From contig JAGVNU010000030.1 of assembly GCA_020053105.1 (NCBI GenBank), positions 1 through 64,000 on the forward strand: a DNA stretch of 64,000 nucleotides. The letters run 5' to 3'. Shown here one piece after another: positions 17,937-24,317 of this stretch; position 1 is the first letter of the stretch, and each line of letters starts with the position of its first letter. The stretch is from Thermodesulfovibrionia bacterium (GTDB taxonomy: Bacteria > Nitrospirota > Thermodesulfovibrionia > UBA6902). The translations under genes were made by a program, and so were the position numbers. The notes under the pieces were generated by a model that saw nothing but the letters and a program-made list of their open reading frames with translations, searched no databases and was not told the DNA's origin.

Positions 17937-19235
17937 TCAGTGTAACCTCTTGAATACCGCTGCTGAATTATAGCCTGCAAAGGCACAGCATGTTTTCATT
18001 GCCATATTCACTTCAGTTTCAATTTTCTCTTTGACCGGAGATATATTGAAAGCGGGATTAACGTTCTCACAATTAAGAGTAGGCAACACTGTTTTGTGTT
18101 CGAGCGACAGCAGAAGAATTGCAGTTTCCAATAAGGCGCTCCCCCCAAGGTTATGACCTACATACGGCTTAAATGCCGTAATAAGGGGCTTTGCGGGATT
18201 TAATCCAAAGATATCCGTTATTGCCTTTGCTTCATAATGATCAATAGATTGAGAACCCACTCCATGAGGACACAGCATTTCAATTTCTTCTTTATTGATT
18301 TTGCTTTGAGATATGGCTTTCAATATCGCCTTTTGATATGAATCGCTCCCGATTTGAGGGGTCGTTACTTTCCACCCTTCAAGGTGGAACCCTCCCCCCA
18401 GGTACTCTGCATATATATGAGCATTTCTCTTTTCAGCATGTTCGAGTGCCTCTAAAACTAGACCCACTCCACCGTCGCCAAAGACAAGACCGTTACTGTC
18501 TTTACAAAATGGTCTGATCTTTCCATCCCGGGAATAAAGGCCGATATCTCTGAACCAGAGATACTTATATATTTCCGTGTACTCCGAGGCAGCCACAACA
18601 ACTGCGGAACTCTGATTGCATTTTATCATCTGTGCGGCAGATTCCAGGGCATAAAGCCCTGATGCGCAGGCATTGTTTGTGAACAGTGAGTAATTATGGA
18701 TATTAAAAGCCTTGGCCACATGAAACAGCGTCATAAAAGTCTGCACATCATAACCGCTTTTCAGACAGTCACGGTACAGCTTTTCATAAAATTCCTTCCT
18801 GGATAAATTTGCGCCGATATCGGATTTCAGGGCATCGTATGATACCTGACTGAGCTTCAGGAGAAACGGCATGAGGCCCATATTTTCATGGGTCAAAACA
18901 AGGCTGAGACCATTATCTTCTGTACCGTATCCGAGCCCGCTGTCTTCCAGGGACAACGCGACTGCAGCCATGAGGTAATTCAAATCTACCGGCGGCTCTT
19001 CCTGTTTCCAGTCCTTCATATAGGCCATGGCGAATTCATCTACCTGAAATTTTCCGAAGTCAAAATCTTTTACGCTATGCACCGGGAAACTCTCCCAGGA
19101 TGCCCCATCGATGTTAAATTCCCTTGAACTTAACCCGGTCCGCTGTTCAATGATGCCCTGCCAGAACGCGTCCTTCCCGATTCCTGCTGAAGCTATGGGG
19201 CCGATGCCTGTAACTACAACTCTATTTTGTTTCAT
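17937..19235 (-). CDS. Beta-ketoacyl-ACP synthase (KS1), catalytic triad intact
   Basis: Cys in NNACASGLYAL, His in CPHGVGS, His in KPYVGHNLGGSA. Confidence 0.88.
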   Translation of the reverse strand: MKQNRVVVTGIGPIASAGIGKDAFWQGIIEQRTGLSSREFNIDGASWESFPVHSVKDFDFGKFQVDEFAMAYMKDWKQEEPPVDLNYLMAAVALSLEDSGLGYGTEDNGLSLVLTHENMGLMPFLLKLSQVSYDALKSDIGANLSRKEFYEKLYRDCLKSGYDVQTFMTLFHVAKAFNIHNYSLFTNNACASGLYALESAAQMIKCNQSSAVVVAASEYTEIYKYLWFRDIGLYSRDGKIRPFCKDSNGLVFGDGGVGLVLEALEHAEKRNAHIYAEYLGGGFHLEGWKVTTPQIGSDSYQKAILKAISQSKINKEEIEMLCPHGVGSQSIDHYEAKAITDIFGLNPAKPLITAFKPYVGHNLGGSALLETAILLLSLEHKTVLPTLNCENVNPAFNISPVKEKIETEVNMAMKTCCAFAGYNSAAVFKRLH

Positions 19236-19242
19236 AACTTAT

Positions 19243-20487
19243 TTACTGTTCCTTAAACTTCTTGACAACCAGGCAGGAGTTATTCCCGCCGAAGGCAAAT
19301 GCATTATTCAATGCTATATTCACTTTCTTTACTTTTGCCTTGTTGGGCACACAATCCACACTGCAATTCGGGTCCGGGGTCTCAAAATTTATTGTAGGGG
19401 GAATAATGTTTTCTTTGACAGTAAGACAGCAGGCAAGCGCCTCAATTGCAGACGCAGCGCCCATAGGATGGCCAAGCATCGATTTTATCGAACTGACAGG
19501 GATGTACTCATATCTGTCCTTGAAAACACTTTTTATTGCAGAGCACTCGGTTTTATCATTGCCCTGTGTGCCGGTCCCGTGAGCATTTATATAATCAACA
19601 TCATCCTTATTAGTACGTGTATATTTCAGCGCCTTCAGTATCGCCTTTTCTATGCCGTCAGCCTTTGATGCGGTCATATGATAGGCATCACAACTGATGC
19701 CGTAACCCGGTATCTCCGCGTATATTTCCACATTCCTGCTCAGCGCTGACTCCAGAGACTCCAGAAAAAGGACCGCCGCTCCTTCACCCACGAGCATCCC
19801 TTTCCTGTTTTTATCAAAAGGCTGACACTTCTCGGGGGCCATTGCATAGACGCGATGAAAACCCGTAAATGCAAGCTTGGAAAACGCGTCAGCTCCGCCC
19901 ACTATCGCGAAGTCCAGATCGCCCCTTTTAATGAAATCAAATCCGTACCCCACGGCATAGTTGCCGGCAGCGCAGGCTGTCGGGATCATATAATTAGGAC
20001 CGTCAATCTTAAAGAACATTGCGATATTAGCAGGTATGTTATTGGCCGAGGATTGGGCTATATTTGTTTTACTCAGATCATAACTGCCTTTCATTACCCA
20101 CTCATCTACAACTTCTTCGATCAGTTTTTCGCCCATTGTGGTCCCAATAAATATTCCGGTTTTTTGGCCGTTAATTTTAGACAGGGGGAATTTGGCATCC
20201 TTTAATGCCAATGCTGCAGCAGCGATGGACAGTTGTGAAGTCCGTCCCAGATATGGAAGTTTCCGTCTATTGATAAACGCTTCGGGTTGGAAATTTTTTA
20301 TCTCCCCGGCATGATGACATCTGTATTCTTTTGTGTCAAAAGATGAAACCCTGCTGATACCGGATGTACCGCTGATTATTGCCTTCCAGAATTCATCCTT
20401 GCCGATCCCTACTGACGACACTACGCCTAAACCGGTAACGACAACCCTGCGTTTCTGGACATTGATTGGTTTCATGCCGTGAGACAA
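19243..20487 (-). CDS. Beta-ketoacyl-ACP synthase (KS2), FabF-like, catalytic triad intact
   Basis: PTACAAGNYA, YINAHGTGTQGND, KSMLGHPMGAASA. Confidence 0.93.
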   Translation of the reverse strand: MSHGMKPINVQKRRVVVTGLGVVSSVGIGKDEFWKAIISGTSGISRVSSFDTKEYRCHHAGEIKNFQPEAFINRRKLPYLGRTSQLSIAAAALALKDAKFPLSKINGQKTGIFIGTTMGEKLIEEVVDEWVMKGSYDLSKTNIAQSSANNIPANIAMFFKIDGPNYMIPTACAAGNYAVGYGFDFIKRGDLDFAIVGGADAFSKLAFTGFHRVYAMAPEKCQPFDKNRKGMLVGEGAAVLFLESLESALSRNVEIYAEIPGYGISCDAYHMTASKADGIEKAILKALKYTRTNKDDVDYINAHGTGTQGNDKTECSAIKSVFKDRYEYIPVSSIKSMLGHPMGAASAIEALACCLTVKENIIPPTINFETPDPNCSVDCVPNKAKVKKVNIALNNAFAFGGNNSCLVVKKFKEQ

Positions 20488-20548
20488 TCATGATACAAAC
20501 AATATTCAATATCCACAAACATACTGCAGCAGTCTATGATCACGTTAT

Positions 20549-20986
20549 TCATTTCTTTTGAATACTGAATATAAGGTTCGCTTTTGCTATTACTCTGTCA
20601 TCTACTTTCACGACAGCATCCGTAATCGCAGCATTATCAAGGAATTTCACCTTCTTTGATTCTATAATTAATTTATCGCCCGGATAAGCCGGGGACATAA
20701 ATTCCGACTTGACCTTCCCTAAATAGTAATCAGGGTGTTCTGCCGCTACCGCAGGTCTGTCAATCGAAAAAAGAATTACTGAAGCCTGCGCCATTGCCTC
20801 GATGATCAACACTCCCGGCATCATGGGATTGCCAGGGAAGTGGCCTTTAAAATAGCTTTCACTGTCCCTTAAAATTTTTATCGCTACCACCCGTTGAGTG
20901 CCTTCAATTTCAATTACTTCGTCAATAAAAAGAAAAGGTTCCCGATGAGGCAAGACAGCCTTGATCTTTATCTTGTCCCATATCAT
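20549..20986 (-). CDS. FabZ-like 3-hydroxyacyl-ACP dehydratase
   Basis: LPHREPFLFIDEV and GHFPGNPMMPGVLIIEAMAQ. Confidence 0.93.
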   Translation of the reverse strand: MIWDKIKIKAVLPHREPFLFIDEVIEIEGTQRVVAIKILRDSESYFKGHFPGNPMMPGVLIIEAMAQASVILFSIDRPAVAAEHPDYYLGKVKSEFMSPAYPGDKLIIESKKVKFLDNAAITDAVVKVDDRVIAKANLIFSIQKK

Positions 20987-21234
20987 GAAAGTGGTTCTTT
21001 ATTTAATGGGGCCGTATATTCGACAACCTGCCTGAGATTCCTGATTTTTGGAATGTCCTGTTCAGGAATGATAATCCTGTACTTTTTCTCAAATGCCGCG
21101 ACAATTTCAATGGCCTTTAATGAATCAATGTTTAAATCTCTGAAAAAGTCCGCATCAGGCGTAAGTTTATCAATCGGGATTTCAAGAATTTCCGAAACCA
21201 TGTTCCTTATTTCTTCTTCGTAGTTGTTGCTCAC
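20983..21234 (-). CDS. Acyl carrier protein
   Basis: 83 aa; DLNIDSLKAIEIVAAFEKKYRIIIPEQD with phosphopantetheine Ser. Confidence 0.93.
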   Translation of the reverse strand: MSNNYEEEIRNMVSEILEIPIDKLTPDADFFRDLNIDSLKAIEIVAAFEKKYRIIIPEQDIPKIRNLRQVVEYTAPLNKEPLS

Positions 21235-21246
21235 AAATAGTCCTCC

Positions 21247-22479
21247 TCAATGCCATTTCGATAAAATAAATGCTGCATTACTTCCTCCGGGGCCATAGTT
21301 GTTGATCAATACATTATTGATCCTTGTCAGACGCGATTTATTGGCCACATAATCGAGATCACAATCTTTATCATTCATTTCATAGTTAATCGTGGGGGGG
21401 ATAAAATTTTTGTACATGCTGCCTATAGTTGCGGCAATCTGAAACATGCCCCCGGCGCTAAATGTCTCGCCTATCATGGATTTAATGGAACTGACAGGGA
21501 TGTTATACGCATATCTGCCGAAAACACTTTTAATCGCCATTGTCTCTAATCTGTCCTGTTCCGGGACTGAATTTGCGGAAGCGCTGATATAGTCGATGTC
21601 CGATACCCCGATCTCGGAAGTCCTGAGGGCCTCCCTGATACTTTCCTTTAAACCATTGGCCCCGGGATGATATTTACCCATTTTATACGCCTCAAAACAG
21701 TTCCCGATCCCGTTCACCTCCGCATAGATTTTCGCATTCCTGCTGCGGGCGTATTCCTCATCTTCGATTATGACAACAGCTGCCCCTTCGCCCAGGATGA
21801 TCCCGTTTCTCCTTTTGTCAAACGGACAGGACAGTTCTTCTCCATTTATGCCGGCAAAAAAACCCAGGCGATAGAAACCGCTGTAATTTACCAGAGAAAG
21901 ACTTTCGACTCCGCCTACTAACACTGCCTTGATCCGTCTGAGCTTGATAAAATCAATTGCGTATTTTAATGCATCTATGCTTGAACTGTAGCCGTTAGAG
22001 ATTGTCGTATTAAATCCCTGGATATTAAACCGGATTGATACCTGACTGGAGGCCGCGTTCATTACCGTTCCAGGGAAAAGTGCAACATTTGTAAAAAGAG
22101 GGCCTTCCTGAATTGTCTCTTTATCAAATTGGGCAAAATTCCATAAAGATGACAGGGTAGTTCCTGTACAGACCCCGATGTCATCAGTATTTTCATGGTT
22201 AATGCTGAGGCCTGCATCCTCAATCGCCAATTTTGCCGCAGAACAAAGCAATCTTGAAGTTCTCTCGAGGTCCCGCAATCCTTTCTGTCCCAGAAACTTT
22301 GCAGGGGTGAAATTATCAATCTCACCTGCCAGTTTGCATTTAAACTGGCCTGTATCGAATCGTTTAACACGTTTGATCCCGGACCTTCCTTCTTTGAGGG
22401 CATGCCAGTACTCTTCCTTGCCTGTCCCGTTAGGCGCGATTACTCCCAATCCTGTAATTACAATTCGTCTATCTTTCAT
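21247..22479 (-). CDS. Ketosynthase-like protein with all three catalytic residues replaced (CLF-like, KS3)
   Basis: KS fold motifs retained; Cys position is Tyr (TISNGYSSSIDAL), His positions are Ser (YISASANSV) and Glu (KSMIGETFSAGG). Confidence 0.88.
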   Translation of the reverse strand: MKDRRIVITGLGVIAPNGTGKEEYWHALKEGRSGIKRVKRFDTGQFKCKLAGEIDNFTPAKFLGQKGLRDLERTSRLLCSAAKLAIEDAGLSINHENTDDIGVCTGTTLSSLWNFAQFDKETIQEGPLFTNVALFPGTVMNAASSQVSIRFNIQGFNTTISNGYSSSIDALKYAIDFIKLRRIKAVLVGGVESLSLVNYSGFYRLGFFAGINGEELSCPFDKRRNGIILGEGAAVVIIEDEEYARSRNAKIYAEVNGIGNCFEAYKMGKYHPGANGLKESIREALRTSEIGVSDIDYISASANSVPEQDRLETMAIKSVFGRYAYNIPVSSIKSMIGETFSAGGMFQIAATIGSMYKNFIPPTINYEMNDKDCDLDYVANKSRLTRINNVLINNYGPGGSNAAFILSKWH

Positions 22480-22483
22480 AATT

Positions 22484-23230
22484 TCAAACTATGCTCAGTC
22501 CGCCGTCTATTACGAAAGTTTGGCCGGTAATATAACCGGCATCATCACTGACTAAAAATTTAACAAGTATTGCAACTTCTTCAGCCCTGCCCACTCTGGC
22601 TAAAGGGACCTGTTTTATTAACTGTTCTTTATATTCATCTTTTAAACCTGCAAGCATGTCTGTCTCAATAAAGCCGGGCGCAACGGCATTCACCCTGATT
22701 TTATATGGCGCAACTTCCCTGGCAAGAGATTTGGTAAACCCAATGATTCCTGCTTTTGATGCAGAATAATTAGTTTGCCGGGCTATACCTACCATTCCGC
22801 TTACGGATGTAATATTAAGAATTACGCCGCTCTTCTGTTTTATTAGTCCTACTATGGCAGCCCGGCTGAGATTGAATGTTCCGTCCAAATTTGTATTTAT
22901 TACTTCATGCCAGTCCTCGGGAGCCATAAGAGCCAGCGCCTTATCTTTAACCACACCGGCATTATTAATAACAATATCCAATCCTCCGAATAATTCTCTG
23001 GACTCATCTACCCATGATTTAACAGCGGCATAATCTTTAATGTCTGCTTGAAATGCTTTGGCTTTACCGCCTGAATCAAGTACTTCTTTCTCAAGAGTAA
23101 GCGCATCCTCGCTGCTTTTGAGAAAATTAAAACTTATATTTACACCTTCACGTGCCAGTTCAAGCGCTATGGCGCGGCCAATACCTCTCGCGGCTCCACT
23201 GATAATCGCTGTCTTATTTCCTTTCGTCAC
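22484..23230 (-). CDS. FabG-like 3-oxoacyl-ACP reductase (SDR)
   Basis: GAARGIGRAIA, NNAG, S...YSASKAG, ITGQTFVIDGG. Confidence 0.95.
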   Translation of the reverse strand: MTKGNKTAIISGAARGIGRAIALELAREGVNISFNFLKSSEDALTLEKEVLDSGGKAKAFQADIKDYAAVKSWVDESRELFGGLDIVINNAGVVKDKALALMAPEDWHEVINTNLDGTFNLSRAAIVGLIKQKSGVILNITSVSGMVGIARQTNYSASKAGIIGFTKSLAREVAPYKIRVNAVAPGFIETDMLAGLKDEYKEQLIKQVPLARVGRAEEVAILVKFLVSDDAGYITGQTFVIDGGLSIV

Positions 23231-23570: not shown

Positions 23571-23756
23571 ATGGACCTTGAATCAAGAATCAAGTGTAGA
23601 GAATGTAAAGGGCAACTGACCCTGAAAATCGGCTGAAAAAGTGTCTATCTACGCTGCATGGATTGCAGCAGGAATTATACGATAGAAGAATATATCGATG
23701 AAATGGACCCCGCTTTTTGGCAGCAATTGTCTAAGCGTTCATGTGACAGGGCCTAG
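23571..23756 (+). CDS. Putative small selenoprotein: dual-CxxC protein with in-frame TGA (Sec) at codon 22; not in the ORF track
   Basis: MDLESRIKCRECKGQLTLKIG-U-KSVYLRCMDCSRNYTIEEYIDEMDPAFWQQLSKRSCDRA; TGA at 23634-23636, TAG at 23754-23756; purine-rich RBS before ATG; frame downstream of TGA is protein-like. Confidence 0.65.
23653..23669 (+). promoter_or_regulatory. bSECIS-like hairpin downstream of the TGA codon
   Basis: gctgca-tggat-tgcagc: perfect 6-bp stem, 5-nt loop with G at position 2, loop starting about 22 nt after the TGA. Confidence 0.55.
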
Positions 23757-23879
23757 AATTGTTGAACAAATCATTCGCCCTTTCCATCTTTTTTCCACTC
23801 CAAGTATTGACAATTAAAATCATATTCCATTATCATGATATGTTCAAAATATTTCGCAACTCATGTATAGAGAGGACAT

Positions 23880-24317
23880 ATGAAAACTATTTTTACTAAA
23901 AAAACCGATGTCAAACAGAAATGGCATATTGTAGATGCTGATGGTTTGGTTGTTGGGAGGCTGGCCTCACAGGTCGCAAAAGTGTTAAGAGGTAAAAACA
24001 AACCGGTTTTTACGCCCAATACGGATACCGGCGATTTCGTCGTTATCGTTAACGCAGACAAAGTGCGCTTTACAGGGAATAAACTTGAGCAAAAGGCATA
24101 TTATCATCATTCTGGTTATCCAGGAGGAATTAAAAAGGAAATTGCCAGGGACATAATGGAAAAAAATCCTGAACGCATTCTTCTTTCTGCAGTCCGCGGT
24201 ATGCTCCCGAAAAACAGACTTGGCAGACAGCAGCTCAGTAAATTAAAAGTATACAGAGGACTGGACCATCCGCATACAGCCCAGAACCCGGAAACTTTAA
24301 ATCTCAATATCCAATAA
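23880..24317 (+). CDS. rplM: 50S ribosomal protein L13
   Basis: KWHIVDADGLVVGRLASQVAKVLRGKNKPVFTPNTDTGDFVVIVNA. Confidence 0.97.
   Translation: MKTIFTKKTDVKQKWHIVDADGLVVGRLASQVAKVLRGKNKPVFTPNTDTGDFVVIVNADKVRFTGNKLEQKAYYHHSGYPGGIKKEIARDIMEKNPERILLSAVRGMLPKNRLGRQQLSKLKVYRGLDHPHTAQNPETLNLNIQ

Follow-up and report, generated by a model that had tools for sequence, protein, structure and literature searches.

The stretch of DNA analyzed here (64,000 nucleotides, referred to as the window) belongs to contig C5 of a 3.27-Mb draft genome from the phylum Nitrospirota (class Thermodesulfovibrionia) that is 83% complete. Immediately upstream of rplM it contains a short reading frame with an in-frame TGA, which raises the question of whether this codon ends a peptide of 21 residues, the length of the first ORF when TGA is taken as a stop, or whether it is read as selenocysteine (Sec) within a longer protein. 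A sequence-only reading of the window had proposed the latter and had described the small gene as a candidate for a hidden selenoprotein.

A small dual-CxxC protein of a named family

The sequence, coordinates and translation proposed in that reading were all reproduced. When the TGA is read through, the frame translates as MDLESRIKCRECKGQLTLKIG-U-KSVYLRCMDCSRNYTIEEYIDEMDPAFWQQLSKRSCDRA (Table 1). Its ATG is preceded by a Shine-Dalgarno-like AGAGGA, and no ORF of at least 60 amino acids competes with it over the same positions. The 2 CxxC motifs indeed flank the TGA, and their 4 cysteines (C9, C12, C29, and C32) are invariant in 73 aligned homologues, in which Y41, E44, D46, W50, R56, and R60 are nearly so. 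The conserved-looking CDR near the C-terminus corresponds to a motif with Asp or Asn at position 59 and a nearly invariant R60 in the homologues. Inspection by eye of the uncovered stretches of the window revealed no convincing candidate for a further gene with a single TGA to be read through.

Table 1. Positions in the window of the predicted selenoprotein gene, its motifs and its downstream neighbor
Feature	Position	Strand	Evidence
CDS, predicted 61-aa dual-CxxC selenoprotein (NF041197)	23571..23756	+	TGA as Sec, TAG stop; NF041197 65.2 bits
In-frame TGA, predicted Sec22	23634..23636	+	130 TGA, 9 Cys, 0 other among 139 aligned genes
First CxxC (C9-R-E-C12), predicted first zinc knuckle	23595..23606	+	C9 and C12 invariant
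Predicted bacterial SECIS hairpin, 6-bp stem GCUGCA/UGCAGC, loop UGGAU	23653..23669	+	-8.6 kcal/mol
Second CxxC (C29-M-D-C32), predicted second zinc knuckle	23655..23666	+	C29 and C32 invariant
C-terminal C58-[D/N]59-R60 motif	23742..23750	+	C58 is Cys in 117/133 homologues of equal spacing
rplM, next gene downstream	23880..24317	+	Conserved neighbor in the window's own family and the next family (27 loci)

The read-through protein matched NCBIfam NF041197 well above the cut-off of 40 bits and over model positions 1–52 of 53, and all 73 aligned homologues matched the same model. No Pfam family covers the protein. The full-length match extends to the CxxC_Se_CxxC architecture of NF041197, with a single Sec between the 2 motifs. 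A 2026 review of prokaryotic selenoproteomes lists NF041197 as "dual CXXC motif small protein (hypothetical protein OS_HP3)", attributing it to Zhang and Gladyshev 2007, and maps to it also the "hypothetical protein DW" of the deep-Sep study of 2025 (PMC13188914). The Sec motif in the tables of this review is RxU or GxU, whereas that of the window protein is G-U-K (PMC13188914). The family appears in several published selenoproteome lists, and no function is given for NF041197, OS_HP3, or DW in the passages of these sources drawn on here (PMC13188914, PMC12013277, PMC9312934). The sequence-only reading had pointed to small dual-CxxC (seleno)proteins as a possibly named family, and this was right. 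The hidden or novel side of its proposal is weak: NCBIfam and published selenoproteome lists already include the family, which is thus not new, though functionally unstudied. The window gene is from Nitrospirota, unlike the published examples in one of these lists (PMC12013277), which belong to the phylum Desulfobacterota. Altogether, the ORF is very probably a genuine selenoprotein gene, and it belongs to the already named family NF041197.

This family was found in 193 of 231 Thermodesulfovibrionia genomes (84%), nearly always as one copy, and it occurs also in another class of Nitrospirota. The sole match outside Nitrospirota in the collection search (L244) lies inside a gene resembling Sir2-type deacetylases and was rejected as a family member.

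Probable recoding of the TGA and the downstream hairpin

To analyze codon 22, we used 140 loci plus the window, of which 139, from 18 family-level groups, could be aligned with the full motif; the remaining 2 (L110 and L113) were represented by an incorrect or incomplete reading frame. Looking for Sec or Cys in homologues had been suggested as a check, and codon 22 was TGA in 130 genes, TGT in 7, TGC in 2, and no other codon in any, in a count restricted to genes with TGA or a Cys codon by the motif used to locate the position, from which other residues would drop out. Homology was continuous across the TGA in all homologues. The pN/pS ratio was 0.24 for the codons preceding the TGA, 0.27 for those following it, and 0.24 for the part past the hairpin described below. 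Purifying selection is thus equally strong on either side of the TGA, and the decay of the downstream part that would have spoken against a selenoprotein was not observed.

A 6-bp stem with the 5-nt loop UGGAU had been proposed downstream of the TGA and was found exactly there. The proposed distance of about 22 nt applies to the loop, whereas the stem starts 16 nt past the TGA. Folding of positions 23634–23680, another suggested check, returned this stem-loop as the apical part of a longer stem with imperfect pairing (-11.5 kcal/mol, z = -2.1). The codons of the second CxxC motif also build the stem-loop. According to the model summarized in the 2026 review, bacterial SECIS elements have a loop of 3–9 nt with a G in the first 2 positions and a stem of 4–16 bp, lie 16–37 nt from the UGA, and have a minimum free energy of -7.5 or lower (PMC13188914). 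With its UGGAU loop, 6 bp, 22 nt, and free energy (Table 1), the hairpin fits these values, as it fits the general SECIS rule invoked for it earlier. A search of Rfam at gathering cut-offs gave no known element at this site.

We then scored every gene for a hairpin that obeys the published model at -5 kcal/mol or lower. Such hairpins were present in 87.7% of the TGA genes, compared with 24.6% of controls with synonymous codons, in which the protein is kept, and 11.7% of codon-shuffled controls. The synonymous control is the stricter one, and it matters because the CxxC codons themselves favor a hairpin. For the window gene, an equally good hairpin arose in 0.7% of 1000 synonymous-codon randomizations. 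Only 1 of the 9 Cys genes (L178) had a hairpin. In the window's own family and the neighboring family, the stem was paired in 97.4% of cells and its covariation was 0.158, compared with 0.107 after shuffling (0 of 500 shuffles reached the observed value), while sliding the stem to other registers gave 0.03 or less. Across the class-wide set, 16 cells carried changes on both sides of the stem vs 5.8 after shuffling. The outer pairs 20-36 and 19-37, which do not overlap the Cys codons, show compensatory changes. Shared descent of the sequences can inflate the shuffle comparison, so we place the weight on the slid registers and on the Sec/Cys contrast.

Some genes depart from this pattern. No hairpin fitting the simple SECIS model was found in 16 of the 130 TGA genes, which are enriched in groups f17 and f18 (L160–L162, Thermodesulfovibrio-like, in f18, and several f17 loci); these genes may have a divergent SECIS. 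The exceptional Cys-form gene (L178:488-652) carries a strong SECIS-like hairpin of -8.2 kcal/mol, and in its genome, G158, selB is absent among the matches listed. This suggests a recent Sec-to-Cys change, or loss of Sec use, with the hairpin still kept.

The genome has machinery for Sec insertion. On contig C8 we detected selA (620 bits, TIGR00474), selB (358 bits), and a tRNA-Sec with anticodon UCA (74 bits); PF12390, a poor and short model, gave no match when used as a selA probe. The best match to selD in the 83%-complete assembly was below the cut-off. That SelD is itself a selenoprotein is a known arrangement, and selD was found in 4 of 4 congeners (L048–L051), each time with one in-frame TGA. 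The likeliest reason for its absence here is a gap in the draft assembly, given its 83% completeness. The check on selA, selB, selC, and selD proposed by the sequence-only reading was thus positive in this genome except for selD, which was seen only in congeners. Genomes with the Cys form lacked selB more often (4 of 9, G081, G099, G125, and G158) than TGA genomes (about 14 of ~184; Fisher p ~0.005), a comparison in which several genomes are incomplete drafts, the TGA total is approximate, and the selB-less status of G158 and G176 means absence among the matches listed. Altogether, these data strongly support recoding of the UGA as Sec through the predicted SECIS: tRNA-Sec and SelB, recognizing the hairpin, would decode this codon as Sec.

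TGA is normally a stop, and the first ORF does end there, so that the downstream frame could be a chance ORF or the decaying remnant of a pseudogene. We give this explanation practically no weight: homology is unbroken across the TGA in all homologues, codon 22 is only TGA or Cys, pN/pS hardly differs between the 2 sides, and the hairpin is specific to TGA genes. Since the gene is known here from DNA alone, the TGA could also specify another amino acid (e.g., Trp if the code were reassigned) or simply be read through. This too is extremely improbable, considering that homologues without the TGA invariably have Cys in its place, that the genome has tRNA-Sec, selA, and selB and the hairpin is tied to TGA, and that the remaining genes of the window are intact under the standard bacterial code. 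Very unlikely, finally, is an origin of the hairpin as a by-product of the CxxC codons, in which UGC followed by A is self-complementary, rather than as a SECIS. About a quarter of synonymous draws still yield an adequate hairpin and several stem pairs vary never or hardly, as this explanation would have it, but 88% were observed against 25% expected, Cys homologues that encode the same CxxC motifs mostly lack the hairpin, and the compensatory changes lie outside the Cys codons.

Predicted fold, gene neighborhood and possible role

The AlphaFold model of the protein (pLDDT 76, pTM 0.56) has strands at residues 15–20, 25–29, and 35–37 followed by helices on the C-terminal side (beta-beta-beta-alpha), with the first 2 strands between the CxxC motifs. 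The nearest folds were zinc ribbons of RNA polymerase III, topoisomerase I, and ZifS, with E values of 0.28–0.5 that are not significant, and sequence search found no solved relative, its matches being unrelated zinc fingers and ribbons. The protein shares the CxxC-x16-CxxC layout and a weak profile resemblance with Trm112, archaeal S27e, and RPB9-type zinc ribbons, and a weak fold resemblance with those of RNA polymerase III. However, sequence scores against the former 3 are far below cut-offs or marginal (Trm112, 17.3 bits vs a cut-off of 77), and these families are not known to contain Sec. Judging from the invariant residues and a model of moderate confidence, the protein is most likely a single zinc ribbon in which the knuckles 9–12 and 29–32 would hold the metal and Sec22, flanked by G21 and K/R23, would sit at the tip of a beta-hairpin. 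Because residue 22 lies in the turn between the first 2 modeled strands, Sec22 is probably exposed at this tip rather than serving the ribbon as a metal ligand. The exposed Sec22 is most likely the reactive residue, and the chemistry of Sec and its replacement by Cys only suggest a redox or soft-metal role, by thiol/selenol exchange or by metal binding, with the frequently present Cys58 as a possible partner.

In the window's family the selenoprotein gene lies upstream of rplM-rpsI-argC-argJ. A good promoter-like site is located between it and rplM (23807–23836), and therefore the selenoprotein gene is probably a transcription unit of its own. Directly upstream, on the minus strand, is a fatty-acid-synthase-like cluster (17937–23230) with 3 ketosynthase-like genes, an acyl carrier protein, a dehydratase, and a reductase; some members of the window's family have kept it beside the selenoprotein gene. 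Neighbors vary by lineage: rplM in f1/f2, rpsT in f16, gltX in f3, asnS in f8, ubiD in f13, aspS in the other class, and cytochromes in f17/f19 (all but ubiD named by sequence inspection). Class-wide, the neighborhood points to no single function. We hold it very probable that the reading as a whole is correct, namely an NF041197 selenoprotein with UGA read as Sec through a SECIS, most likely a zinc ribbon with a reactive Sec at its tip, and encoded by what appears to be its own transcription unit.

One recurrent neighbor provides a concrete lead to function. Proteins with a CxxCxxxCC motif made up 42 of 579 ORFs within 1.5 kb of the selenoprotein gene vs 0 of 814 further out, in 5 family-level groups, counts that ignore kinship and that shared gene-order ancestry can explain in part. 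Such genes were seen at L106, L103, L095, and 32 other loci in 2 arrangements, a downstream type that matches PF03692 ("putative zinc- or iron-chelating") and a second type divergently upstream; a gene for a YacP-type NYN nuclease often follows further downstream of the pair. Sec22 might be no redox residue at all, but part of a site for metal or selenium delivery formed with this neighbor. The enrichment near the gene and the PF03692 match speak for such a site, but neither the window's own family nor 12 other groups have the neighbor, and common ancestry of gene order can account for part of the count; we consider such a site rather unlikely. That the zinc ribbon with its Sec tip and the PF03692-like protein constitute an undescribed metal/redox handling pair widespread in Thermodesulfovibrionia is a still more doubtful proposal.

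Gene callers that use the standard code would truncate this small gene at the TGA. New here are the presence of the family in most genomes of the class, the quantitative evidence for the SECIS, the Sec/Cys contrast, and the CxxCxxxCC neighbor. The locus offers a clean and strongly conserved case for an orphan selenoprotein family, for which the Cys-form relatives serve as natural controls. Its presence in 84% of the genomes of the class, mostly as a single copy and nearly always with Sec, points to a core function for which selenium is an advantage.
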